From Planctomycetota bacterium (GTDB lineage: Bacteria; Planctomycetota; Planctomycetia; Planctomycetales; Planctomycetaceae): a stretch of DNA of 42,107 nucleotides. The first letter of the stretch is position 1. The number at the start of each line of letters is the position of its first letter. Positions 7,382 to 40,434 of this stretch are shown piece by piece. The position numbers and the translations under genes are program-made. The DNA lies in contig VGZH01000050.1 in assembly GCA_016872645.1 (NCBI GenBank), forward strand, positions 1 through 42,107, given 5' to 3'. The notes beneath the pieces are model-generated. The model had not been told where the DNA came from. It made no database searches and saw only the letters and a program-made list of their open reading frames with translations.

Positions 7382-10339
7382 TCATTTCGGTTGATTTGGC
7401 TCCGGCTTGTTCGGCACTGGAACAACGATGGGATCGATCGGCGAAGCATTCGTTGCTGGCACGTCTGGCGTCGGTTGGAGCAACTGAAGCAACCCGCCAC
7501 CCCCACCGCCACTGATCGAGTTCACGTTGTAGATGTACTCCGCATTGAGAGCCTTGTTGATCTGCGTCTGTGCTTTCTGCAGATGAGCCGATGTGTACGG
7601 GTCCAGGTTGCCGGGAGCTTCCTTGAGAATCCGCTCCACGCTCGCCAGGATTTTTTTCACTTCGACCAAGGCGAGATTGGCGATGGCTTTGCTCGCTTCG
7701 GTGTCGGTGAATTTTTGCGGCAAAGTCAATTCGATCAGACGGTCAAGGTGCTCCTGCTGCAGGTTGCGCCGGAGGCTGCTGATCATTGGAACTCGCGGAG
7801 TGTGCTGCTTGTCAGGATTTTTGTCCGCTTCACGCCAGACGTTGGCAGTGATTGCCGAAAGTACCTCCGGTAATGTGACCGCATCTTGATCCGGCGGAAT
7901 CGTCAGTTCGTTGTCATAAATTCGACGAAGCGTTGTCGGCCGCAGCAGTGACGACATGATCGAAGTTTGAAAACCAGCGATCTTGTCGTTGATCGGCCAC
8001 GTTGCGTCGGAATCGTCGAAGCGGTCGCCATCGATCCACTTTTCTCTGGTCATGCGAACCAGCAGTGCTGGAGTCAACCCGAACGCGGCATCCTCAAACG
8101 TGTTCTCGATGGTGAACTTGAGAGCTTCGCGTTGCATCGCGGCAGGGACTGGTTCGATCGGGGCACGACCGTTCTTATCCCCCTTTTTGTCCCGATTGAT
8201 GAACGCTCCGCCCAACCAGTTGGCCATCATCCCGACCGACTGCATCTGCATGTTGAAGGTCAGCTCGTAACCTTGTCGCGACTTGGCCCACGATTGTCCG
8301 TCTTTGACGAACTTGTCGAGAATCTTCGCACGGTTGTTCTTGATGAGCCGAATTTGATTCTGCGCATAGTCCAGCGGATTCTTGCTGAAGTCGTACCGGC
8401 GAGCCAGCGGGTCCGACCCCACCGTGTCCTCGTCGGTCGCGTACACCAGTTCCGGCTCTGCCACACGGTCGAGAATTGGCTTGAGGTCGGCCGCAAACGT
8501 GTAGCCGTATTCGATGGCCCACATGTCGTACGGACCGACCCCCGTCATCGACCAATCCCCTTGAGCCTTGTTGTTGGGATCAGCCGGGACGTTCATGTTA
8601 ATCGGCAAATAATCCATCACCGAACCGGCCAGCGTTTTTTTTCCCTTGATCTCGTCGCTGTTGATTTGGGCAAGCGTGTAGACACTGGACGCTTTGAAGT
8701 TGTGTCGCAAGCCAAGTGTGTGCCCGACTTCGTGACAGACCAACTCGGCCAACAGCGGGCCGATGAACGATTCCGGCATTCCGTCGAGCTTCGGCTCTTC
8801 GGGAGCGGCCGGAGCGCCTCCAGGCGCGGCCGGTTGCTGATCGTTGATGCCTTCGACTTCCGCCAGGTCGAACGTCATGCGAGCCATCGCCAAGTCGAGC
8901 ATCTTGGCTTGAGCCGCCATGCACATACCATTGACCTGGCTGGTGCGGCCGAGAAGGCCATCCATGGGATCATCGCCGAACAACGTTGTGCGATTCATCG
9001 ACAGCGGATGTCCTGCGAACGGCGCGGCCGCGTCACGTTGGATTTGCTGAGCCACTTGATTGCGTTGCGACGGTGCGGCCAGGCGAACTCGGGGATCCCA
9101 ATTCGGATGCTTGGCCAGCCACGCATACGTGTCGGAATCGAAGCCCTCCATCGCGAGCGTTGGCAGCACGTCGTTGAACTGTCGGTTGAAGTGCCGAATC
9201 CAACCGTCGGTGAGGACGATGTCGGCATCGAGAATCTCGCCCGTCCAAGGATTCACGCGACTAGGGCCGATCGCGGTCCCGACGTTGTTATTCAACCAGC
9301 GAATGAAATTCCAACGGACGTCTTCCGGATCTTTATCCATGTAGGCTCCGGTCTGAGCATCCTGCTGCAAGACTTCGATCGCCCCGACGATGCCCACTTT
9401 CTCGTAGGCTTTGTTCCAATAGAGCGTCCCCTCTTTGACCCAGCGACGATAGCGGACGGGAGTCGTGTGCTCGATCACAAATGTGATTGGTTTGACCGGC
9501 GGACTGAGCTTCAGCGACGGATCTCGCTTCTCCAGGTGCCAGCGGTTGATGTAGCGGACACGCGTGTCATCGGTGACATACTTGCCGTAGTCGCTGTAGC
9601 CGGTGGTGAAGTAGCCGATCCGCTCGTCCGCCTTACGCGGCTGATATCTCGTGTTCGGCGTAATTTCGCTGATCGAGTAGTGCAACGTCTGAAGTTGTCC
9701 GCTGCCACTGGCAACCTCGAACGCCACTTCGACGTTTTTGCTGAACGCCTTAGCCTTCTTGATCGTGACGATGTTCGGGCTGCGAACACCACCCGCGCCG
9801 CTACGTCCGCCACCGAAGAACAGTCCCGACTGGCCAATCAGCAGTTGATTGAGGTCGATGATCGGCAAGCCTTCCGGACTTATCGTCAGGATCGGTACCT
9901 CGGTGATCAACTTATCGGTGAAGAGTCGGTTGACTGAGCTGGTTGCTTCGGGATCGCCGCCCGAACGAATATCGATGTTCGGGTCCATCAGCGCAAGCCG
10001 CTTGTCGTACCGTCTCCAGTAGACGACGCGGTCGCCCGCTTGCAGACCGGCGAATTGAGCGCCGCTGGCGACCGTCATCGCCATGAAATACTTCTGCTGC
10101 AAATAGTCGCGAGGCAATTCCGCCAGCACGTGCCCGTCTTTCGCACGGACATACAAGCCGTACAACGACGACTCCCCCTCGGGAGGCGAAACCCTCTTGA
10201 AATCCCTCAGCATGTCGGCCGCCGGCGGAAATTCCGAAGGAGCCGGAGCCTGCGCTCTCACATCGCCAGCCGTGACCGTCATCGCCAGCAGCAAACCAAC
10301 TAGACCCAACCAACGATGCCGCCAATCAAAGGATTTCAT
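7382..10339 (-). CDS. Secreted zinc-dependent metalloprotease (DUF5117/DUF4953 type)
   Basis: A 985-residue exported protease-like protein. The ATG at 10339 has an AAGGTGG ribosome site and opens a signal peptide (MKSFDWRHRWLGLVGLLL, cleaved near VRAQAP); the frame extends to 10477 without another credible start. The N-terminal third matches the DUF5117-type region. The zinc site is CHEVGHTLGLRHNFKAS at about residues 535-551, a metzincin-like HExxHxxGxxHN; the third ligand is His546, and the DUF4953-type region surrounds it. A conserved SVMDYLP lies about 40 residues later. A proline/alanine-rich loop precedes the zinc motif. The C-terminus ends in a low-complexity tail with six glycines in a row followed by a Pro/Asn/Val-rich stretch. 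Substrates are unknown; the protein should act in the periplasm or outside the cell. Codon usage matches its neighbours. Confidence 0.9.
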   Translation of the reverse strand: MKSFDWRHRWLGLVGLLLAMTVTAGDVRAQAPAPSEFPPAADMLRDFKRVSPPEGESSLYGLYVRAKDGHVLAELPRDYLQQKYFMAMTVASGAQFAGLQAGDRVVYWRRYDKRLALMDPNIDIRSGGDPEATSSVNRLFTDKLITEVPILTISPEGLPIIDLNQLLIGQSGLFFGGGRSGAGGVRSPNIVTIKKAKAFSKNVEVAFEVASGSGQLQTLHYSISEITPNTRYQPRKADERIGYFTTGYSDYGKYVTDDTRVRYINRWHLEKRDPSLKLSPPVKPITFVIEHTTPVRYRRWVKEGTLYWNKAYEKVGIVGAIEVLQQDAQTGAYMDKDPEDVRWNFIRWLNNNVGTAIGPSRVNPWTGEILDADIVLTDGWIRHFNRQFNDVLPTLAMEGFDSDTYAWLAKHPNWDPRVRLAAPSQRNQVAQQIQRDAAAPFAGHPLSMNRTTLFGDDPMDGLLGRTSQVNGMCMAAQAKMLDLAMARMTFDLAEVEGINDQQPAAPGGAPAAPEEPKLDGMPESFIGPLLAELVCHEVGHTLGLRHNFKASSVYTLAQINSDEIKGKKTLAGSVMDYLPINMNVPADPNNKAQGDWSMTGVGPYDMWAIEYGYTFAADLKPILDRVAEPELVYATDEDTVGSDPLARRYDFSKNPLDYAQNQIRLIKNNRAKILDKFVKDGQSWAKSRQGYELTFNMQMQSVGMMANWLGGAFINRDKKGDKNGRAPIEPVPAAMQREALKFTIENTFEDAAFGLTPALLVRMTREKWIDGDRFDDSDATWPINDKIAGFQTSIMSSLLRPTTLRRIYDNELTIPPDQDAVTLPEVLSAITANVWREADKNPDKQHTPRVPMISSLRRNLQQEHLDRLIELTLPQKFTDTEASKAIANLALVEVKKILASVERILKEAPGNLDPYTSAHLQKAQTQINKALNAEYIYNVNSISGGGGGGLLQLLQPTPDVPATNASPIDPIVVPVPNKPEPNQPK

Positions 10340-29597: not shown

Positions 29598-30593
29598 GTG
29601 CTGATCCTCAATGCTGTTGATGTCCGCGAAGCCCTGCCGATGCCGTTGGCCATCGAGGCGATGAAGCAAGCCTTCGCCGCCTTCAGCGAGGGCAAAGCAC
29701 TTGTGCCACCGCGGATTCACCTTCCGATTGCTCCGCATTCTGGCATCAGCCTGATCATGCCGTCGTTTGTCGATGCCGCCACAACGTCAGAGCAGGCGCT
29801 CGCGGTGAAGGTCGTCTCCCTGTTTGACGGGAATCAAGCTCGCGGACTGGCTCGGATTCAAGCGGCGGTCCTGGTGTTGGAACCGGACACCGGTCGACCA
29901 ATCGCGTTGCTGGATGGTGTGATGCTGACGGCGCTTCGCACGGCGGCGGCAAGTGGCGCGGCGACCGATCTGTTGGCTCGGCGAAATTGCCGGACAGTGG
30001 CTCTCTTCGGAGCCGGCGTTCAGGCCATCACGCATCTGTTTGCGATGTGCGCAGTGCGGCCGATTGAAAAGATTTTCATCTACGGTCGCACGCCGAGCAA
30101 AGTCGCGGCCTTGATCGCAGAATTCGCGGGACGTCCGGCACTCACCGCGCAGCTCATTGCCGCAGAGTCCCCTCGACAAGCGTTGGTCGATGCCGACATC
30201 GTCTGCTGTACCACAACCTCACAAACGCCGGTCTTTGACGACGCTGATCTCAAGCCCGGAGTTCACATCAACGCCGTCGGTTCATTCACGCCGCAAGCTC
30301 GTGAGGTTCCGCCCGAGACTGTGTGCCGATCATTGGTCGCGGTCGACAGTCGACACGCCGTGTGGCAAGAAGCGGGAGATCTCATTCAGCCGCTGCAGGC
30401 GGGTTTGATCGGTCGCGAACACATTCACGCAGAACTCGGCGAACTGGTGCTTGGCCGGAAGAGTGGCCGAACGGACGATCGGCAGGTCACGTTTTTCAAA
30501 TCGGTCGGCTTGGCCGTGCAGGACGCCGTCTCCGCGCGAGTTGCGCTGGAAAACGCCGCACGGCTGAAACTTGGCCAAGAGGTGTCGTGGTGA
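29598..30593 (+). CDS. Ornithine cyclodeaminase / mu-crystallin family protein
   Basis: A 331-residue NAD(P)-dependent enzyme of the OCD/mu-crystallin family. The start is a GTG at 29598 with TGGAG 8 bases upstream. The substrate-side region has PPRIHLPI and LAVKVVSLFDGN with a conserved Lys at about residue 71. The Rossmann motif is VALFGAGVQAITHLFAM (about residues 133-149), followed by the IFIYGRTPSKVAAL helix. The late block is PGVHINAVGSFTPQAREVP. Family members include ornithine cyclodeaminase, alanine dehydrogenase (archaeal type) and ketimine reductases; which one this is cannot be decided from sequence. The broken ECF sigma gene follows it on the same strand. Confidence 0.88.
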   Translation: MLILNAVDVREALPMPLAIEAMKQAFAAFSEGKALVPPRIHLPIAPHSGISLIMPSFVDAATTSEQALAVKVVSLFDGNQARGLARIQAAVLVLEPDTGRPIALLDGVMLTALRTAAASGAATDLLARRNCRTVALFGAGVQAITHLFAMCAVRPIEKIFIYGRTPSKVAALIAEFAGRPALTAQLIAAESPRQALVDADIVCCTTTSQTPVFDDADLKPGVHINAVGSFTPQAREVPPETVCRSLVAVDSRHAVWQEAGDLIQPLQAGLIGREHIHAELGELVLGRKSGRTDDRQVTFFKSVGLAVQDAVSARVALENAARLKLGQEVSW

Positions 30594-30644
30594 GCGAGAC
30601 CTCACTGAGTGTTCTGGACCGCGCGCGAGGTAACGGCAACGGCA

Positions 30645-31146
30645 ATGACGAGTCGTAGCGACATCTCGCTGCTGCTACGTGCTTGGCTGTTGCGATTCGA
30701 GGTCTCGCCAATGGACGCGGGTAATCTGATTCAAGAGGTCTTGCTGATCGTCGTGCGCGAGTTGCCTCAGTTCAAACATTCCGGAGGAGCTGGTGCGTTT
30801 CAGAGTTGGCTGCGAACAATCCTGGTTTACCGACTCCGCGATTTTGGCGATCGCGCAACTACCGCCCGGTCGCTGCGGGAGGCCGCACCTGGATGGAACA
30901 GCTCCAGCAACTTGAAGACGAATCGAGCAACGTCAGTCGCGAATGGAATCTCGAACAGGAGCGGCATGTGATGGCGCGACTGTTGGAGCAAGTCTGCCCG
31001 CGCTTTAAGGCCCGAACTTGGGGAGCCTTCCGCCGCCAGATGTTCGACGGACAGCGGGTCGATGCCGTCGCCTCGGAACTCGGTAATTCAACGGTCTGCG
31101 CAGAGAAGCGGCGGGACACATCGAAGAGGCCCCGAATCCGCTGTGA
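30645..31146 (+). pseudogene. Broken ECF sigma-70 factor gene
   Basis: Three frames together spell a planctomycete-type ECF sigma factor. The first frame (from the ATG at 30645) has MTSRSDISLLLR, then a region-2 core DAGNLIQEVLLIVVRELPQF and SGGAGAFQSWLRTILVYRLRDF. Near 30845 the match moves to another frame: AAGGRTWMEQLQQLED, then ERHVMARLLEQVCPRF, KARTWGAFRRQMFDGQ and RVDAVASELGNS. Near 31092 it moves again: NGLRREAAGHIEEAPNPL and stop at 31146. The segment between SLLLR and the region-2 core is about 25 residues too short, and the region-4 recognition helix is missing between ASELGNS and LRREAA. At least two frameshifts and two deletions make it non-functional. It follows the OCD-family gene after 51 bases. 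Confidence 0.82.
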
Positions 31147-31271
31147 CAAACATTCGCTGGGTGAATGGCGGTGCCTCTAATCCGAAGGCCGAAGGGTGCG
31201 CTGGAGATTCCTCTCGCTCCACCCCAGTCCCCGTCAACCGTCGTGGCCGTCACTTGTTTGTGTGATGACCT

Positions 31272-34200
31272 CTAATCGTCGATGAAGCCCAGAGCCCGCA
31301 GGATCACCTCGGCGGCGGCGTTCCGTTTTTCTTCATCGCGGAGCCGCTCGGGAAGTTCCATTTCCTCGGCGGCAATCGCTCCGGGAATCACGGGGTCGGC
31401 TTCGATGCGAAGCGACTGCGCGTATTCACGGCCATCGACATCCAACACGACCCGGTACATTCCCGGCGAAACCGTTGAGCCACCGCCCGTTCCGCTGGGG
31501 CCTCGACTACCACCTCCGCCACCGCCACTTGTGCCGGATGGAACGGTGCGGGGCGTCTGAGTCGCAGGTGAGCGAGCGGTGTCCGTCGAGCCTGCTACGG
31601 CCGGGCGATCAATTTGGGTGTCGCCTCGCGGTCGACCACCGCTACCACCGGATCCGCGCTGGCCGCCACTAACTCCTGATCCAGCGGTTGGACGGTTGGC
31701 TGAGCGGCTCAAGTCCCAGGTCACTGAATACAAACCCGGTTCCGCACGACCCGGCAATGTGCGCACCGTCGTGCCGGTGTGATCCAGGATCCGCAAGCTG
31801 ACTTTTTGAGCCTTCTCGGCCAGTGCGTAGGTCAGTGACGCGCTGCGAGACGGGTTGGCTCCGGAATAGATCTGACTTCCACCCCCGATTCCTCGCGACG
31901 GCTCACCGCGCCAACGGACAACCGTGTTGGGTTCGAACAAGTGTGCTGAGGCTTGCAGCACATCGGCGGTCATTTGACGCAACGGAGTGATGTCCACGAC
32001 CCACAAGCTGCGTCCATGTGTCGCGGCGACCATTTCGCCGGCGGTCGGATGAATGGCCAACTCGTGAATCGCGACTGTGGGCAGATTGTTATTGGCCTTC
32101 GTCCACGACTCGCCCCGATTGATCGACGCAAACACGGCGAATTCAGTCCCGACAAACAACAGATTCGGATTGCGGACGTCCTCGCGCAGACAGCGCGTCG
32201 AGCCCACAGGCAGATTGGCGCGCAGCGATCTCCACGTTTCACCGAAATCTTCGGTCACACAGATGTAGGGTTCGTCGTCATCCGAGCGGTGCGCGTCGAA
32301 GGAGACGTAGCAGCGTCCCACGACAAATCGAGACGGCTCCACGGTGGCAACCCACCGCGGTCCGGGAAGACCGACCTTGTCTGCGACGTTTTTCCAATTC
32401 GCTCCGCCGTCGCGAGTGATCCACAAGTTGCCGTCGTCCGTACCGGCCCACAGCACGTCCGGATCCTGCGGCGATTCGGCGAGTGCCGTACCGGTACCGC
32501 GCCCTGTGCGTGCGATTTCCGGAGAAATCACCTTCAGGTCATCACCACGTTTGACAGATCGAAAAACGTAATTCCCCGCCGTGTAGTAAATCCCGGGATT
32601 GTGATTCGAGAGGATGAACGGTGTGTTCCAATTAAAGCGGAAGCGTTGCCCGCGTTGGCCGCGTGGCGAGATGCCCCTTCGCTCCCCAGTCTTCAAGTTC
32701 CGGCGGCTTAACGCGCCGTTCTGGCTTTCCGAGTAGACGATGTCGGGATCAAACGGATCGACTCGGCAGACAAAACCATCGCCAGTTCCCACGGAAATCC
32801 AGTCCGAATTGATTGGGCCAGTGCCATTGAGCGTTCGCGTCGGGCCGCCCCAAGAACCGTTGTCCTGCAACCCTCCGTACGCACGATATGGCTGCCGATT
32901 ATCCAGGGCCACATGATAAAACTGTGCGATCGCCAAGTGATTCAAATGCTCCCAATGAGTCATGCGATCCCAGGTCGCATAGAAGCCTCCGTCGGTGCCG
33001 ACCACCATGTGACGGCCATCTTTCGGATCGATCCACAAGGCATGGAAGTCCGCATGCACATTGCGTCCGCCGTCAGCGGTAAAGGTCTTGCCACCGTCTT
33101 TGGAGCGATGCAGCGACACCCCGAGAACGTACAAGTATTTTTCATCCTGCGGATCAACTCGGACTTGGCTGAAGTACATTGGCCGCGGGTTCAGGCTGTT
33201 GATGCGGGTCCACGTTTCGCCGCCATCGGCCGAACGATAAACGCCACCGTATTCAAATTCGTTGGGCCCCTGTGTCCCTTGGGCGTTTGGAGATTGGCCG
33301 CCGTACTGAAAACCGAAAGGTCGTGTATTGACGCCGCCAGGTGGTTCCAACTTGAGTTTGAAATCTCTGGCTTCTTTGTCACGAAGCCCTTTAACCGTGA
33401 CTTCGTCTCCCTCGAATCGCTCACGCAGGGTTTCTAAGAGTGCCGCCGCTGTTGTGATCGGCTTGCCGTCAAATTCATGGAGTACGTCCCCCACATCGAT
33501 CCCTGCCTTGCTGGCCACGCTTGAATCCGAAACTCGTTCGACCTTGATGCCTCCTCCGCCCAAATCTTCGGAGCTGATTCCCAGTAATGACGACAACACT
33601 CGGCTTCCTGTGGCGCCGCCACCACTAAATCCTCCCGTCGGGCGTGCATCCAACGTGGCTGTGATTTCCAGGACTTTTCCGTCACGGGCAATCTCCAGCG
33701 CCAGTTGATCGCCGGCGCGAGTCGTGCGGAGCATTTCCGTGAATTGCTCGTAGCTGTTGATCGGCTCCTTCTTGGCGGACTTCACAATGTCCCCGGGACG
33801 CAAATCGGCACGCGCGGCTGGACCACCATCAATAATCTCAATGATCTTCACACCGTCCGAAGTATCTTCGCCTTGGAATCCCAAGTAGCCCGAACTGGGT
33901 CCGCTGACCGTAGCGCCCAGCGGACGTAACGACAGTGTGGCTTCGATCTCCTGCGTCTTCTCTTCGCGGACGACTTCCAGCTTGAGTTTTTCGCCTGCGG
34001 GCTTGCCCTTGAGGGCGTCCGTCAACATCGAGTAACCGGTAATCGGCTGGCCATTAAGCGACTTGATGACGTCGCCAACTTTCAGTCCCGCCTGTTCGGC
34101 GGGGCCTTTGGGAGTGATCTGTGTAATTTGTGCTCCTCCACCACCGTTTTGCCCCTGCACTCCCAAATAGACGCGGTTCGCAGCGATCCCCTTGCCGATG

Positions 34201-35297
34201 TTCTCGCAGTCGATGATCGCAAACAGGATGTTGGGGTCTTTGCGATACCAATCGACGTCCATGCGCCCGAGCTGACCCGTTGGCAGACCAGACTTAGCGT
34301 CGCCATTGAGCTTCTTCCACGTCTTGCCGCCGTCCGTCGTTTTGTGCAAGCCGCTGCCAGGTCCCCATTTTTTGATCGGGTCGTACAAGTCGTAGCCATC
34401 TTGAACCGGTGGCTGCCCAGGATGACTGTCGTAGCCATCTCGCTGCCGTTCCCACGTTGCCACGATCATTGTGTCGGGCGCGGTCGGGTGCATCACGATG
34501 TCGATCACGCCAGTCTTGTCGTCCGTCGGCAGTACGCGTTCCCAGGTCTTGCCCCCGTCGATTGTCTTGTACAACCCGCGTTCGGCACTGGGTCCGTACA
34601 ACCGCCCCAACGCTCCGACATAAACGATGTCCGGATTCGTGGGGTGTACCATGATCTTGCCGATTTGATAGGACTTTGTGAGTCCCATGTTGATCCACTT
34701 CTTGCCGCCATCGGTCGACTTGTAGACGCCATCGCCGTAGGAAACGGAATTGCGAGGATTCGCTTCACCGGTTCCGACCCAAACAATGTTCGCATCGGAC
34801 GGTGCCACGCAGACATCGCCGATAGAGACCGTCGCTTCATTGTCGAATTGATGCTCGAACGTCACGCCGTTGTTTGTGGTCTTGAGCAACCCGCCCGACG
34901 CGGTCGCGATGTACCAAATCGAGGGATCGGCTTCGAACACCGACACCGCCGTGATGCGACCACCCATGCCGGCCGGACCGATCGAACGCCACTTCAGCGC
35001 CTTCACCCAATCGGACGGCAGAGCGAATTCGCGCGGCTTGGTCTCTCGTTTCGTGGTCGCGGTCGTCTCCGTTGCCGGCTTCTTGGTCCCGGTGCGAATT
35101 TGTTCGACCTGTTTGCGCAGCGCGTCCAGTTGCTTGAGCACTTCTTCCAACTGCTTCTCCGAAGTTGCCGGCGCCTCCTCTTTGGCCGCGGCGGCTTCCT
35201 GAGCCGTCGCACGCGGCGTATCGAGAGCCGACCACCAAATCCCCAGACACATCAAAAAAAGCGAACTTCCCAAACGAGGCCCAAGCGAAGTCGTCAT
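31272..35297 (-). CDS. Secreted BNR/sortilin-like propeller with three inserted PDZ domains
   Basis: A 1341-residue exported protein. The ATG at 35297 (GGAG 8 bases upstream) gives a signal peptide (LGSSLFLMCLGIWWSALD, cleaved near ATAQEA). A short Glu/Lys coiled coil follows (about residues 44-70). Residues about 100-370 are BNR/Asp-box propeller blades of the VPS10-like kind, with repeats such as TTNNGVTFEH, STDGGKKW, TIDGGKTWERV and TTDGGKTWKKL. Three PDZ domains follow at about 375-460, 470-552 and 570-655, each with a GLKVGDVIKSLNG-like or RPGDIVKS core. The propeller then resumes (SADGGETWTRI, SKDGGKTF, TRDGGANWKN, NRGESWTK) to about residue 1100. A low-complexity Gly/Ser/Pro/Thr region (about 1170-1275) precedes a short closing domain. 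Peptide binding or protease-adaptor work outside the cytoplasm is likely; no catalytic triad is visible. Confidence 0.9.
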   Translation of the reverse strand: MTTSLGPRLGSSLFLMCLGIWWSALDTPRATAQEAAAAKEEAPATSEKQLEEVLKQLDALRKQVEQIRTGTKKPATETTATTKRETKPREFALPSDWVKALKWRSIGPAGMGGRITAVSVFEADPSIWYIATASGGLLKTTNNGVTFEHQFDNEATVSIGDVCVAPSDANIVWVGTGEANPRNSVSYGDGVYKSTDGGKKWINMGLTKSYQIGKIMVHPTNPDIVYVGALGRLYGPSAERGLYKTIDGGKTWERVLPTDDKTGVIDIVMHPTAPDTMIVATWERQRDGYDSHPGQPPVQDGYDLYDPIKKWGPGSGLHKTTDGGKTWKKLNGDAKSGLPTGQLGRMDVDWYRKDPNILFAIIDCENIGKGIAANRVYLGVQGQNGGGGAQITQITPKGPAEQAGLKVGDVIKSLNGQPITGYSMLTDALKGKPAGEKLKLEVVREEKTQEIEATLSLRPLGATVSGPSSGYLGFQGEDTSDGVKIIEIIDGGPAARADLRPGDIVKSAKKEPINSYEQFTEMLRTTRAGDQLALEIARDGKVLEITATLDARPTGGFSGGGATGSRVLSSLLGISSEDLGGGGIKVERVSDSSVASKAGIDVGDVLHEFDGKPITTAAALLETLRERFEGDEVTVKGLRDKEARDFKLKLEPPGGVNTRPFGFQYGGQSPNAQGTQGPNEFEYGGVYRSADGGETWTRINSLNPRPMYFSQVRVDPQDEKYLYVLGVSLHRSKDGGKTFTADGGRNVHADFHALWIDPKDGRHMVVGTDGGFYATWDRMTHWEHLNHLAIAQFYHVALDNRQPYRAYGGLQDNGSWGGPTRTLNGTGPINSDWISVGTGDGFVCRVDPFDPDIVYSESQNGALSRRNLKTGERRGISPRGQRGQRFRFNWNTPFILSNHNPGIYYTAGNYVFRSVKRGDDLKVISPEIARTGRGTGTALAESPQDPDVLWAGTDDGNLWITRDGGANWKNVADKVGLPGPRWVATVEPSRFVVGRCYVSFDAHRSDDDEPYICVTEDFGETWRSLRANLPVGSTRCLREDVRNPNLLFVGTEFAVFASINRGESWTKANNNLPTVAIHELAIHPTAGEMVAATHGRSLWVVDITPLRQMTADVLQASAHLFEPNTVVRWRGEPSRGIGGGSQIYSGANPSRSASLTYALAEKAQKVSLRILDHTGTTVRTLPGRAEPGLYSVTWDLSRSANRPTAGSGVSGGQRGSGGSGGRPRGDTQIDRPAVAGSTDTARSPATQTPRTVPSGTSGGGGGGSRGPSGTGGGSTVSPGMYRVVLDVDGREYAQSLRIEADPVIPGAIAAEEMELPERLRDEEKRNAAAEVILRALGFIDD

Positions 35298-35546
35298 GGT
35301 CGAGGCTCCCCAAGTCGTCGGACAAAAGCCAAAGAAGTTAGTGGCGGAACGCCGCAAGCACGGAAATGAGGTCGACAGCGTGCAAATGGCCGGGCCGCAT
35401 TGCAAGCGATATAAGGTCGACGATTCTAAAACGGCTCATCTTGCTTTTGGCAAGCCGTGCAAACCGAAACCGGCAAGCCTTCCGTGATCCCAGAATACGT
35501 TTGGCATCTCGTTTGAGAATGGCGTCACGCAGGCACTTTCTACTAT

Positions 35547-35841
35547 GTGCAATCAAACCCAGACGCCCCTTTCGCACAGTGCATTTAATGTCCTGGATTC
35601 GTGCAGGTAACGCAGTCCGCGAGCAGTTCTGATTTTTTCGCACGGTCGCTCGACACGAAGTTGTCCCACGCATCTTCGAAAAATTTGGCTGGTCAAGGTA
35701 ATGCGGTTGGAATGTTTGGATTCACTGCGCCCGCGTTCTCTTGTTGCATCCAGGCCGAAGAATCTGCACCACCTCGAAATCCACGAGCGGGACCAGTTCG
35801 ACGACACGCTTTTGGCCCGTTGGGTTCGGCAGCCATCCGTT
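35547..35841. repeat. 295-bp direct repeat, copy 1
   Basis: The same 295-base sequence occurs in the same orientation at 38843-39137. By eye there are about nine differences, eight of them within the first 75 bases; the following roughly 200 bases are identical except for one base near the right end. No frame has a clear family match, and the copy has no terminal inverted repeats. It lies upstream of a DNA-alkylation-repair remnant. The two copies enclose that remnant and the FG-GAP/ASPIC-UnbV gene. Confidence 0.9.
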
Positions 35842-36116
35842 TCTGCTGAGCAAGTTCTGAAAAGCCCCGCAGGACTCGACCTCGCCGCGTGGCTGGATCG
35901 CATCGAGAAGGGAATGACCGCCGCTGTCCCCGAAGTTCGCTGGACGATGAACAGGTGCCTGACAGAAATCGGCATCCACTTCCCCAAAAAGTCCGCGAGC
36001 CGGCACTCGCAATCGGTGAGAAGTTGGGAATCGATCGCGATTATCCCTGTTCCAATGGGTGTGCCTTTCCGTTCGCCCCGATCTGGATTTACGAAATGGT
36101 GAGGCGGCAGTGGTGA
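35842..36116 (+). pseudogene. C-terminal remnant of a DNA alkylation repair (AlkD-like) gene
   Basis: Two frames together give the end of an AlkD-like HEAT-repeat protein. The first frame reads LAAWLDRIEKGMTAAVPEVR and then WTMNRCLTEIGIHFPK. After about 35980 the match passes to another frame: VREPALAIGEKLGIDRDYP, then CSNGCAFPFAPIWIYEMV and a stop at 36116. The combination IGIH...R..A..IGEKLG...DYP...GC..PFAPIWI..MV is the conserved ending of this family. The N-terminal two thirds are absent: directly upstream is the 295-bp repeat, which probably replaced or truncated it. A frameshift is also present. The remnant cannot be functional. Confidence 0.72.
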
Positions 36117-36511
36117 ACCATCAACCAGCCCGCCGCACAGCAATGCCGGTGCAGAGTGCAAAGTGAAAAACGCAATTCATCCATTTTGCACTAAGCACTG
36201 CCTCCTCTAAATCCAACATCCGGAGCCTCACGGCATCATTTCTCGCCACCGTTCCAATACGTTGAAAGAGTCGCGAATGACACAACACGGACCAACGACG
36301 TCAATGCCACCTGAGACACCCGATCCGGCGTGGTAGCGGAATTGGTGCGAACCGCTAAGGGCCGAAAGAAAACGATTCATCCGCCCAGCAACTTGGATGG
36401 CCACTCGCTGGCGTTTGGCGGATCGAATAACGATCGCGCCTTGTCCGCAAGCAAGCAGCCAATAAGATCAACTAGCCACGAATGCCACACGAATCTAAGA
36501 AGAGGCCGCCC
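36117..36511. other. Gene-free stretch upstream of the FG-GAP gene
   Basis: About 395 bases that should contain the promoter of the following gene. An imperfect inverted repeat is visible (36151-36168 with 36184-36201, GTGCAAAGTG-like arms). A plus-strand frame at 36330-36480 is protein-like in composition but unrecognised. Confidence 0.35.
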
Positions 36512-38818
36512 ATGCTCTCACGCAAAGTTTGGAAAATCATCATGGGGTTGGTGTTGCTTGTGGCCGTTGTTTTTGTTGGTCGAGAAATCACCGGTCGCCT
36601 CGCTGTCTCGCGTCACGATGGAGTTGGCAAGATTGTCAAGGAGGGCGTGACTTCGTCAGACGAGTCTGGTGTTTCAGGATCGACTTCAAAACGAATTTTT
36701 CTGAGCCGCCAAACCATCGATGCCAGCGGCCTCACGTTCGTGCGGGAGCGATTGAAGCCTTGGAAAGCCGACGCTTCCCTGGCGGAAATTGCCAAGGTCT
36801 GGGAACACCCGGGACGCGATGTCATTCAAGAAGCCGACCAAAAGTTAGCGGAAGACAATCTATCGGCCGATTTTTCAGCCTTTCTGCGCATGGTGCAGGC
36901 CTCATGCCGGGTCTACGAGGGGGATCCCAAGCAGGCGTTTGACGACTTAGCACGGCTACGGCTCGAGATGGAAAATAATCAAACCGTGGCAGAGAAGTAC
37001 CTGTATACGGTGATCTACCTGCAGGCCGTCACATCGCTCCGCCGCGGCGAAACAGAGAACTGCGTCAAGTGTCGCGGCGAGGGATCTTGCATTCTCCCCC
37101 TTTCTCCCTCCGCGAAACACACCGATCAATCTGGCTCCCGATTGGCCATCAAGTACTTCACGGAATACCTCGACAAGTTCCCCGAGGATTTGGAAGTTCG
37201 CTGGCTGCTCAACGTGGCCCACATGACGCTCGGACAATATCCCGAGGGGGTCGATTCTAAATACCGGATTTCGTTAGCCCAGTACGAGCGTTCCGAGTTC
37301 TCGATCGGCAAGTTTCGCGATGTCGGTCACCTTGTGGGGATCAATTGCCTGAACATGGCGGGGGGCGCGATTCTCGATGATTTCGATAACGATGGACTAC
37401 TGGACCTCGTGTTCACCACAGCTGATCCCACGCAGACCATGGCCTACTTTCGCAACAAGGGAGACGGCACGTTTGGGGATCGCACCAAAGAAGCCGGTTT
37501 GTCGGATCAACTCGGCGGGTTGAACTGCGTTCAAGCCGACTTCAACAACGATGGCTTTCTGGACATCTTTATCCCGCGCGGCGCATGGCTCACGACACCC
37601 ATGCGGCCGAGTTTGCTCAAGAACAACGGGAACAACACGTTCACTGATGTCACTGCCGACGCAGGCCTCATGCACCCGATGAATACCGACACATGCCAGT
37701 GGGCCGACTTCGATAACGACGGCTGGCTCGATTTGTTCGTGTGCGGTGAAGCCCAACCGAGTCGGCTGTACCGGAACAAGGGGAATGGGACTTTCGAGGA
37801 TGCGACATCGACCGCTGGACTCGACGACATTCCCGGAATGTGGAAGGGTTGCTCGTGGTTTGATTACGACGGAGATCGCTTCCCCGATTTGTTCCTCAAC
37901 AACCTGACTGGGGCGCCGAAACTCTTCCACAATAACCGCGATGGCACGTTGAGCGACGTAACGCTCGAGAAAGGTATCGATGCCCCCACCGTGGGACTGT
38001 CGTGCTGGACTTGGGACTACGATAACGACGGCTGGCTGGATATTTGTGCCACCAGTTTCGACAGGTCGCTCACCGACATGGTCAAAGGACTGCTTGGAGA
38101 ACCGCACCAGCGAAAGCCGGGCAAGCTGTACCGCAACTTGGGCGGCAAAGAATTCGAAGATGTGGCCCAGGAGGTCGGACTTGATGAATGCTATTCATCG
38201 ATGGGCAGTAACTTCGGCGACTTCGACAACGACGGCTTCCTCGATATTTATCTGGGAACGGGCGACCACGACGTCGCCACGCTGGTACCCAACCGCTTGA
38301 TTCGAAATCTTGGCGGTAAAAAGTTCGTCGACATCTCAGCGTCGTCGGGAACCGGACATCTGCAAAAGGGACACGGGATCGGCTGCGGCGATTGGAATCG
38401 CGACGGAAACTTGGACATCGCGATTGAGATGGGAGGTGCGATTCCTGGTGACCGGTACCACAATGTGTTGTTCCTCAATCCGGGCCAAGGAAACCACTGG
38501 CTTAACGTAAAGCTCGTGGGAAAGAAGTCCAATACTTCGGCAATTGGCGCTCGTATCAAGGCTGTTACTTCGGGTGAAAACCCGCAAACCATTTACCGCA
38601 CGGTTTGCTCGGGGAGCAGTTTCGGGGCGAACCCGCTGGAGCAGATGGTCGGGCTAGGCAAGGCAGAACAAATCGCGGAACTTGAGATCTATTGGCCCAC
38701 CAGCGACACCACTCAAGTTTTTCGAGATATTCCCGCCGATCAGGCCATCGAAATCACGGAGTTCGCTGCGGATTTTAAGAAGCGTGAATACAAGCCAATT
38801 CCATTACCCAAGGAATAG
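36512..38818 (+). CDS. CRTAC1-type protein: FG-GAP propeller plus ASPIC/UnbV domain
   Basis: A 768-residue membrane-anchored protein. The ATG at 36512 is preferred because GAGG lies 7 bases upstream; 36482 is also in frame. One N-terminal helix (IIMGLVLLVAVVFVG) should anchor it with the rest outside. Residues about 90-240 look helical and TPR-like, with a Cys pair region CVKCRGEGSC followed by a conserved HTDQSGSRLAIKYFTEYL. Seven FG-GAP/VCBS calcium motifs follow: DFDNDGLLDLV, DFNNDGFLDIF, DFDNDGWLDLF, DYDGDRFPDLF, DYDNDGWLDIC, DFDNDGFLDIY and DWNRDGNLDIA, enough for a seven-bladed propeller. The end is an ASPIC/UnbV domain (NHWLNVKLVGKKSNTSAIGA, then ELEIYWPTSDTTQVFRDI). The role is probably calcium-dependent adhesion or binding. 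It lies between the two 295-bp repeats. Confidence 0.93.
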   Translation: MLSRKVWKIIMGLVLLVAVVFVGREITGRLAVSRHDGVGKIVKEGVTSSDESGVSGSTSKRIFLSRQTIDASGLTFVRERLKPWKADASLAEIAKVWEHPGRDVIQEADQKLAEDNLSADFSAFLRMVQASCRVYEGDPKQAFDDLARLRLEMENNQTVAEKYLYTVIYLQAVTSLRRGETENCVKCRGEGSCILPLSPSAKHTDQSGSRLAIKYFTEYLDKFPEDLEVRWLLNVAHMTLGQYPEGVDSKYRISLAQYERSEFSIGKFRDVGHLVGINCLNMAGGAILDDFDNDGLLDLVFTTADPTQTMAYFRNKGDGTFGDRTKEAGLSDQLGGLNCVQADFNNDGFLDIFIPRGAWLTTPMRPSLLKNNGNNTFTDVTADAGLMHPMNTDTCQWADFDNDGWLDLFVCGEAQPSRLYRNKGNGTFEDATSTAGLDDIPGMWKGCSWFDYDGDRFPDLFLNNLTGAPKLFHNNRDGTLSDVTLEKGIDAPTVGLSCWTWDYDNDGWLDICATSFDRSLTDMVKGLLGEPHQRKPGKLYRNLGGKEFEDVAQEVGLDECYSSMGSNFGDFDNDGFLDIYLGTGDHDVATLVPNRLIRNLGGKKFVDISASSGTGHLQKGHGIGCGDWNRDGNLDIAIEMGGAIPGDRYHNVLFLNPGQGNHWLNVKLVGKKSNTSAIGARIKAVTSGENPQTIYRTVCSGSSFGANPLEQMVGLGKAEQIAELEIYWPTSDTTQVFRDIPADQAIEITEFAADFKKREYKPIPLPKE

Positions 38819-38842
38819 GCGACGATCGGTTCTCTTGACGGC

Positions 38843-39137
38843 GTGCAATCAAACTCAGACGCCACTTTCACGCAGTGCATTTAATGTCCTGGATTCGTGC
38901 GGGTGGCGCAGTTCGCGAGCAGTTCTGATTTTTTCGCACGGTCGCTCGACACGAAGTTGTCCCACGCATCTTCGAAAAATTTGGCTGGTCAAGGTAATGC
39001 GGTTGGAATGTTTGGATTCACTGCGCCCGCGTTCTCTTGTTGCATCCAGGCCGAAGAATCTGCACCACCTCGAAATCCACGAGCGGGACCAGTTCGACGA
39101 CACGCTTTTGGCCCGTTGGATTCGGCAGCCATCCGTT
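38843..39137. repeat. 295-bp direct repeat, copy 2
   Basis: Second copy of the repeat at 35547-35841, same orientation, starting 24 bases after the stop codon of the FG-GAP gene. The sequences immediately outside the two copies are unrelated on both sides, so the boundaries are sharp. No DNA-alkylation-repair sequence follows this copy. Confidence 0.9.
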
Positions 39138-39348
39138 CTGCAGAGCGAGTCCGCGCTCTTGTTCCCACGCGTTCTTCCGTGAGATGTTTAGCGGTGCTAA
39201 CGACGGTCGCAAATGGCGGGATGTACTAGTGCCGCTCATTGAACTCCCCTGGCTTTCGACGGTTTGCTAATGGCAAGAATCTGGACGAGGGAATTCGAAA
39301 TACATGGCGTCCGGTGTCGCGACGAAAGCGTTGGGGCAAGGCTTCGAA
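39138..39348. other. Spacer after repeat copy 2
   Basis: About 210 bases up to the stop codon of the PLP enzyme gene on the other strand. I see no gene or terminator. Confidence 0.35.
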
Positions 39349-40434
39349 CTATGATTCGTGCAACCGCGAGAATTCTTCCAGGTTGACCAGCGGAGCACCG
39401 GCCGTCGCGGCGACCGTCTCCTCGACCGAGTGGGGGTCTTTGAAGCCGGAACCGGTGATCATGCAGATGATGTGGGCGTCGGAGGTAAGGCGGCGTTCGC
39501 GAGCGGCTCGCAGGGCACCAGCGAGGGCGACGGCTCCGGCGGGTTCGGTGAAGATCCCTTCGTCGCGGGCGAGGCGGCGTTGAGTTTCCCAGACTTGGTC
39601 ATCGGTGACGACGTGGCCGCTGCCGCCGGAGGCTCGGCATTCGTTGACGGCCCAGTGGCCGTCGTTGATCGTCGGGACTTGCAAGCCGCTGATGCGTGTC
39701 GTGCTGGTCACTTCGCGAGCTTGCGTGTGTCCGTCGCGCAACGGTGAGGCCATCGTGTCGTTTCCTTCGGGCTGCACGACTTCGACGGCGGGGCTCTTTC
39801 CGAGCACTCCGCGTTCGACAAGTTTGCGAAAGCCTCGTGCGGCGGCGACGGCGAGTCCCCCTCCACCGGCGGGACAGAAGAGATGATCAATCGTCGGCGT
39901 TTGCTCGGCGAGATCGAACGCGACGGTTTCCACGCCTGTCATGCCGGGAGCGGAATACTTGTACGAGCTGACTTGCACAGCAGCGTCCGGTTCGCTGCCC
40001 CATTTCTGAATGAGTGCCATCACGGCCGAGGTGGTCGCGATATCGGCTCCGAAGCCGCGAATGCGATACAGCTTCGCTCCGTAACAGAGCATCTGCTGCA
40101 ACTTGCCAAGCGGCGCCCCTTCGACAATCGCGATCAGGCATTGAATCCCCGCCGCCGCGCAATACGCGGCCAGCGACGCTCCGGTGTTGCCGCTCGACGT
40201 CGCGATGCAGCGTGTCTTTCCGGCGGCGACCATGTGCGAGACCGTCGCCGCCGCGAAGCGATCCTTGTACGAAGCCGTCGGGCTGACGAAGTCGAGCTTG
40301 AACCAGAGGTTCTTCAATCCGGCGTTCGGCCCGATGCTTCGCGAGCGAACGAGCGGTGTCTGTCCTTCGCCGAGCGTGATGCGAGCGTGTTCCGGCACGA
40401 AGTCGATCAGGTCTGCCCAACGCCAGATGCTCAT
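39349..40434 (-). CDS. Threonine synthase-like PLP-dependent enzyme
   Basis: A 361-residue fold-type II PLP enzyme most like threonine synthase, which converts O-phosphohomoserine to threonine. The opening LGEGQTPLVRSRSIG is typical. The PLP Lys57 lies in SPTASYKDRFAA, the Asn-binding block is ATSSGNTGASLAAY, and the phosphate-binding glycine loop is FCPAGGGGLAVAAARG. FTEPAGAVALAGAL and ICMITGSGFKDP close the fold. The latter is the threonine-synthase type of C-terminus (TGxGxKD). Related enzymes such as diaminopropionate or cysteate synthase cannot be fully excluded. No homoserine pathway gene is nearby. The ribosome site is weak (GAGA). Confidence 0.85.
   Translation of the reverse strand: MSIWRWADLIDFVPEHARITLGEGQTPLVRSRSIGPNAGLKNLWFKLDFVSPTASYKDRFAAATVSHMVAAGKTRCIATSSGNTGASLAAYCAAAGIQCLIAIVEGAPLGKLQQMLCYGAKLYRIRGFGADIATTSAVMALIQKWGSEPDAAVQVSSYKYSAPGMTGVETVAFDLAEQTPTIDHLFCPAGGGGLAVAAARGFRKLVERGVLGKSPAVEVVQPEGNDTMASPLRDGHTQAREVTSTTRISGLQVPTINDGHWAVNECRASGGSGHVVTDDQVWETQRRLARDEGIFTEPAGAVALAGALRAARERRLTSDAHIICMITGSGFKDPHSVEETVAATAGAPLVNLEEFSRLHES

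Follow-up and report, generated by a model that had tools for sequence, protein, structure and literature searches.

The pair of near-identical direct repeats on contig VGZH01000050.1 of a planctomycete draft genome (5.76 Mb, 213 contigs) carries the remains of a DUF1801 gene. Judged by comparison with genomes of the same genus, the last 120-130 bases of the repeat almost certainly represent the 3′ end of such a gene (PF08818). We lean towards a history, graded here as a whole chain of events, in which a fragment of the dead gene was duplicated locally, as a tandem that was later truncated, and afterwards underwent partial gene conversion. The window is the entire stretch of 42,107 nucleotides that was analysed, and the features of the locus are listed in its coordinates.

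29598-31180, forward strand: conserved neighbours marking the ancestral locus, whose counterparts in relatives lie on the upstream side of the alkylation-repair gene.
31272-35405, reverse strand: Sortilin/BNR-PDZ gene, 1377 aa, 4.1 kb, left of D1.
35547-35841, forward strand: repeat copy D1 (left), the extra copy, with its last ~120 bases (35722-35841) assigned to a DUF1801 gene (3′ end).
35842-36116, forward strand: DNA-alkylation-repair remnant abutting D1, about the last 100 codons, frameshifted; the intact relative belongs to PF08713.
36117-36200, forward strand: spacer 3′ of the alkylation-repair remnant, which can still be aligned with the corresponding position of the same-genus genome G003.
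36482-38818, forward strand: intact FG-GAP_3/UnbV_ASPIC gene, 778 aa, between the alkylation-repair remnant and D2.
38843-39137, forward strand: repeat copy D2 (right), in the native position, with its last ~120 bases likewise assigned to a DUF1801 gene (3′ end).

The two copies have the same orientation, measure 295 nt each, are 97% identical, start 3296 nt apart and have four different flanks in all. They differ at nine positions of the repeat (13, 22, 28, 30, 59, 63, 64, 71 and 278), eight of which fall within repeat positions 1-75 (hypergeometric test, P 9e-5). The mismatch level is 12% over the first 67-75 bases, against no mismatch at all along one stretch of 206 consecutive bases (P about 1e-4 if mismatches are placed at random), and a weak gapped similarity extends for ~15 bases beyond the right edge. 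A preliminary description of this DNA had reported a near-identical direct pair of 295 bp, with about 200 almost perfectly identical bases and the differences gathered in the first 75, and it was accurate on each of these points. It also placed a truncated alkylation-repair remnant and an intact FG-GAP/ASPIC-UnbV gene between the copies, where both are found, and noted that recombination could delete about 3.3 kb, which agrees with the D1-D2 interval of 3296 bp. The dead DUF1801 3′ end within the repeat itself was missing from its list of contents.

In its own genome the repeat occurs at two places at E ≤ 0.001, both at this locus, and the 17 other places listed at E ≤ 10 are each only 15-31 bases long. 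No full-length match was found outside the own genome among the 170 genomes of the family. D2 matched 14 of these 170 genomes at E ≤ 0.01: its own, three of the same genus with partial but strong matches (G003, E 3e-11; G006, 1e-7; G007, 4e-6), and ten with weak matches (21-38 bases, E 0.001-0.01), which we took as chance. D1 matched one of the 12 genomes of the genus at E ≤ 0.001, its own; the other eleven are drafts of 87-97% completeness, in which absences are weak evidence. The two copies differ in their genus matches because of seeding, as the mismatch at repeat position 278 removes from D1 the 11-base word on which the search starts; with 7-base words both D1 and D2 match G002, G003, G006 and G007. 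Position 278 is also the sole mismatch that the relatives can polarise, with D2 carrying the base of all four and D1 the changed one. Searches of Rfam (35000-39600, E ≤ 1) and of a plasmid collection (distant blastn) returned no match, ARAGORN found neither tRNA nor tmRNA in the whole window, and no exact 31-mer of the repeat occurred in a collection of genome contigs, which may omit the own genome.

These results bear on the suggestion, made in the preliminary description, that the pair might be a non-autonomous mobile repeat. MITE-like non-autonomous elements are of comparable size and have no transposase gene, and the window repeat resembles them in both respects; its edges are sharp, and no coding gene spans the whole of it. 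In contrast to such elements, it lacks terminal inverted repeats (compared without gaps, the exact ends of the copies agree at 8 and 7 of 25 positions), target duplication and dispersed copies in the draft genome, where its two places form one locus. Target duplications, which the preliminary description had proposed to look for, are absent at the edges of both copies (the most similar 8-mers up to 15 bases from the edges agree at 5/8 positions for D1 and 4/8 for D2), and the copy count that it had proposed comes to two in the draft genome. The scan of proteins in the area turned up no transposase, in line with its remark that neither a transposase nor terminal inverted repeats were visible. 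With two copies only, no inverted ends, no flanking duplication, a gene fragment inside and a DUF1801 3′ end whose intact gene is native to this locus in relatives, the mobile-repeat reading is already largely refuted, and we regard a MITE-like element as hardly tenable. As counter-evidence to its own reading, the preliminary description had named the existence of only these two copies, with a simple tandem duplication of a known gene fragment in related genomes. The outcome is close to this, as just two copies of a known gene fragment are present, except that the relatives show a single intact gene and no duplication.

The assignment to DUF1801 is based on three lines of comparison. Firstly, the DNA that matches the repeat in G003, G006 and G007 is the 3′ end of an open reading frame, which in G007 encodes a DUF1801 protein (PF08818; Pfam, 2.9e-17). 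Secondly, a search with this protein matches both D2 (39015-39149, E 1e-4, 44% identity) and D1 (35719-35841, E 2e-4, 44% identity). Thirdly, when the D2 region was aligned locally, as DNA, with nine DUF1801 loci and each alignment was compared with 50 mononucleotide shuffles, the scores were 80-104 for the loci of G007, G006, G003 and G002 (shuffle maxima 34-42) and 44-54 for four more loci (shuffle maxima 34-39). The likeness of D2 to DUF1801 runs past the edge of the repeat, to 39149-39150 with three of these four relatives and to 39134 with G003. The own genome has a separate, open DUF1801 paralogue (contig C46, 67% with the G007 protein as query), and as DNA this intact paralogue scores 30 against the repeat, under the best shuffle of 38. 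Pfam recognised no family at E ≤ 1 in the DUF1801 fragment (45 aa).

For the first ~170 bases of the repeat (35547-35720 and 38843-39016) no source was detected among the DUF1801 loci or in Rfam. Aligned together with the 24 bases before them to the nine DUF1801 loci, they gave nothing above the best of 200 shuffles, and a likeness of a few residues seen by eye was dropped, with no score above the shuffles. This part may be decayed DUF1801 sequence or something else.

The ancestral surroundings of the DUF1801 gene can be read from the relatives. In G003, G006 and G007 an intact alkylation-repair gene (PF08713 in G007) lies upstream of DUF1801 on the same strand, adjacent to it in G006 and G007 and at a distance of 2.7 kb in G003. 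The window gene at 29598-30593 has its counterpart upstream of the alkylation-repair gene in all three (84-86% identity), and that at 30806-31180 in G007, so that the order flanking gene, alkylation-repair gene, DUF1801 is kept in three same-genus genomes. Of 296 loci surrounding homologues of the alkylation-repair gene, the best 80 were compared; three of these 80 have a same-strand DUF1801 gene downstream, and the same three (G003, G006, G007) have the 29598 gene; one more (L148) has a DUF1801 gene on the opposite strand, 4.2 kb away. Near full-length alkylation-repair matches (E ≤ 1e-100) outside the own genome occur in four genomes of the genus, and DUF1801 lies on the same contig in three of them; in the fourth, G009, the two genes are on separate contigs. 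In the 2.7-kb insert of G003 (contig C384, locus L071), which occupies the same gap as the FG-GAP gene in the window, we observed a 270-aa open reading frame with no Pfam family at E ≤ 1.

In the window both the alkylation-repair and the DUF1801 gene are dead. The spacer that follows the alkylation-repair remnant is native to the locus, and therefore D2 occupies the native DUF1801 position, with D1 as the extra copy. Within this spacer, 36149-36200 is a short intergenic repeat-like sequence: a search of the own genome with 35406-36481 returned the second copy of the repeat and two short, weak matches to this segment (contigs C140 and C51; 27-47 bases), which also occurs in G003. D1 joins directly to the middle of the alkylation-repair gene, a novel joint that connects a downstream end to an upstream site, and past the joint there is a short, imperfect likeness over ~15 bases. 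In aligning with intact genus genes in conserved order, the remnants in the window resemble ordinary pseudogenes of the DUF1801 (PF08818) and DNA_alkylation (PF08713) families; they differ from the ordinary case in that one remnant occurs twice and in that no source was detected for the first ~170 bases of the repeat. A further alkylation-repair remnant, also frameshifted, lies in G011 (contig C129, locus L070, about 9950-10170). It is truncated at a different point, and breakage of the locus has thus occurred more than once in the genus.

Left of D1, the Sortilin/BNR-PDZ gene occupies the place expected for the front of the alkylation-repair gene. It was found in one of the 12 genus genomes at E ≤ 1e-100, the own genome, and in three of the 170 family genomes at E ≤ 1e-150, namely the own genome and two of other genera, with 51 and 53% identity over parts. 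It is probably a lineage-specific insertion and, from this distribution, probably reached the locus horizontally. The FG-GAP gene has a 64% homologue in G011, on another contig than the G011 alkylation-repair remnant; a contig end cuts off one side of this homologue after 535 bases. The repeat was not seen beside either of these G011 features, both of which lie within ~0.3-0.5 kb of a contig end. The own genome holds no second copy of the alkylation-repair remnant or of the FG-GAP gene, and the left spacer has no likeness to the other spacers of the locus.

We propose the following history for the locus. From an ancestral order of flanking gene, alkylation-repair gene and DUF1801, both of the latter genes would have died in the lineage of the window, with D2 left in place as the native DUF1801 remnant. 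D1 would then stem from a fusion of this remnant, at its 3′ end, to an internal site of the alkylation-repair gene, as happens in a tandem duplication, and the remainder of the first unit would have been cut away at the present site of the Sortilin/BNR gene. The central 206 bases probably stayed identical through homologous exchange between D1 and D2. The preliminary description had named gene conversion or a recent duplication as the source of the mismatch pattern, and the clustering of the mismatches and the 206-base run support this as likely; the pattern fits conversion of the central 206 bases at a later time, but changes that arose in a burst within the first 75 could also have produced it. 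Two complete units do not stand side by side in the window, as there is no alkylation-repair gene with the stretch that precedes the repeat left of D1. What the sequences show directly is the identity of the 3′ part, the native gene order in relatives, the two copies and the new joint; the tandem step, which is unseen because this second full unit is missing, is inferred, as are the order of the events and the conversion.

In Salmonella, duplications and deletions are known to arise spontaneously with endpoints in short direct repeats (PMC3411829). Tandem duplications of this kind resemble the locus described here in joining a downstream end to an upstream site on a local scale. The locus differs from them in the absence of a second full unit, in a likeness at the joint that is short and imperfect, and in that the event is reconstructed.

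The main rival to a truncated tandem duplication is a single event of templated repair, in which a break was healed by copying 295 bases of the nearby DUF1801 remnant while DNA from the Sortilin side replaced the front of the alkylation-repair gene, with no larger tandem unit at any stage. Such an event would need fewer steps, and it is consistent with the position of D1 exactly between lineage-specific DNA and the truncated gene, with the loss of everything else of a first unit, and with spacers that lack any likeness to each other. However, no hallmark sets it apart from a tandem duplication that was later truncated, and the contrast between 12% mismatch in the first 67-75 bases and 206 identical bases would still call for a second event. 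We consider templated repair possible but doubtful.

Direct repeats that enclose one unit could also result from a circle, made of the alkylation-repair remnant and the FG-GAP gene, that integrated by a single crossover in the repeat, or from a mis-assembly through the 206 identical bases, in which case the alternative way of joining the sequence would give a 3.3-kb circle or a variable-number array. The draft state of the assembly (213 contigs) speaks for these readings, as does an identical tract that is presumably hard to bridge with short reads. Nine differing sites and four different flanks nevertheless indicate that two copies exist in the data. In the D1-D2 interval no gene for replication or mobility was recognised, and the remnant of the alkylation-repair gene belongs natively to the locus, as does its spacer, neither having been newly brought in. 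Both variants are improbable in our judgement. Still less probable is a small unit, made up of the repeat, the alkylation-repair remnant and the FG-GAP gene, whose copy number changes or which is excised as a 3.3-kb circle through recombination between D1 and D2; were this so, loss or amplification of the FG-GAP gene in the population would be reversible.

Local duplication of a DUF1801 remnant, whether by a truncated tandem, as favoured here, or by templated repair, makes the repeat pair most likely a product of ordinary genome decay in a planctomycete chromosome. Its importance is local: one candidate mobile element is removed, and a route is suggested by which one conserved gene pair of a planctomycete genus may have decayed, through truncation, the arrival of a lineage-specific gene and local duplication.
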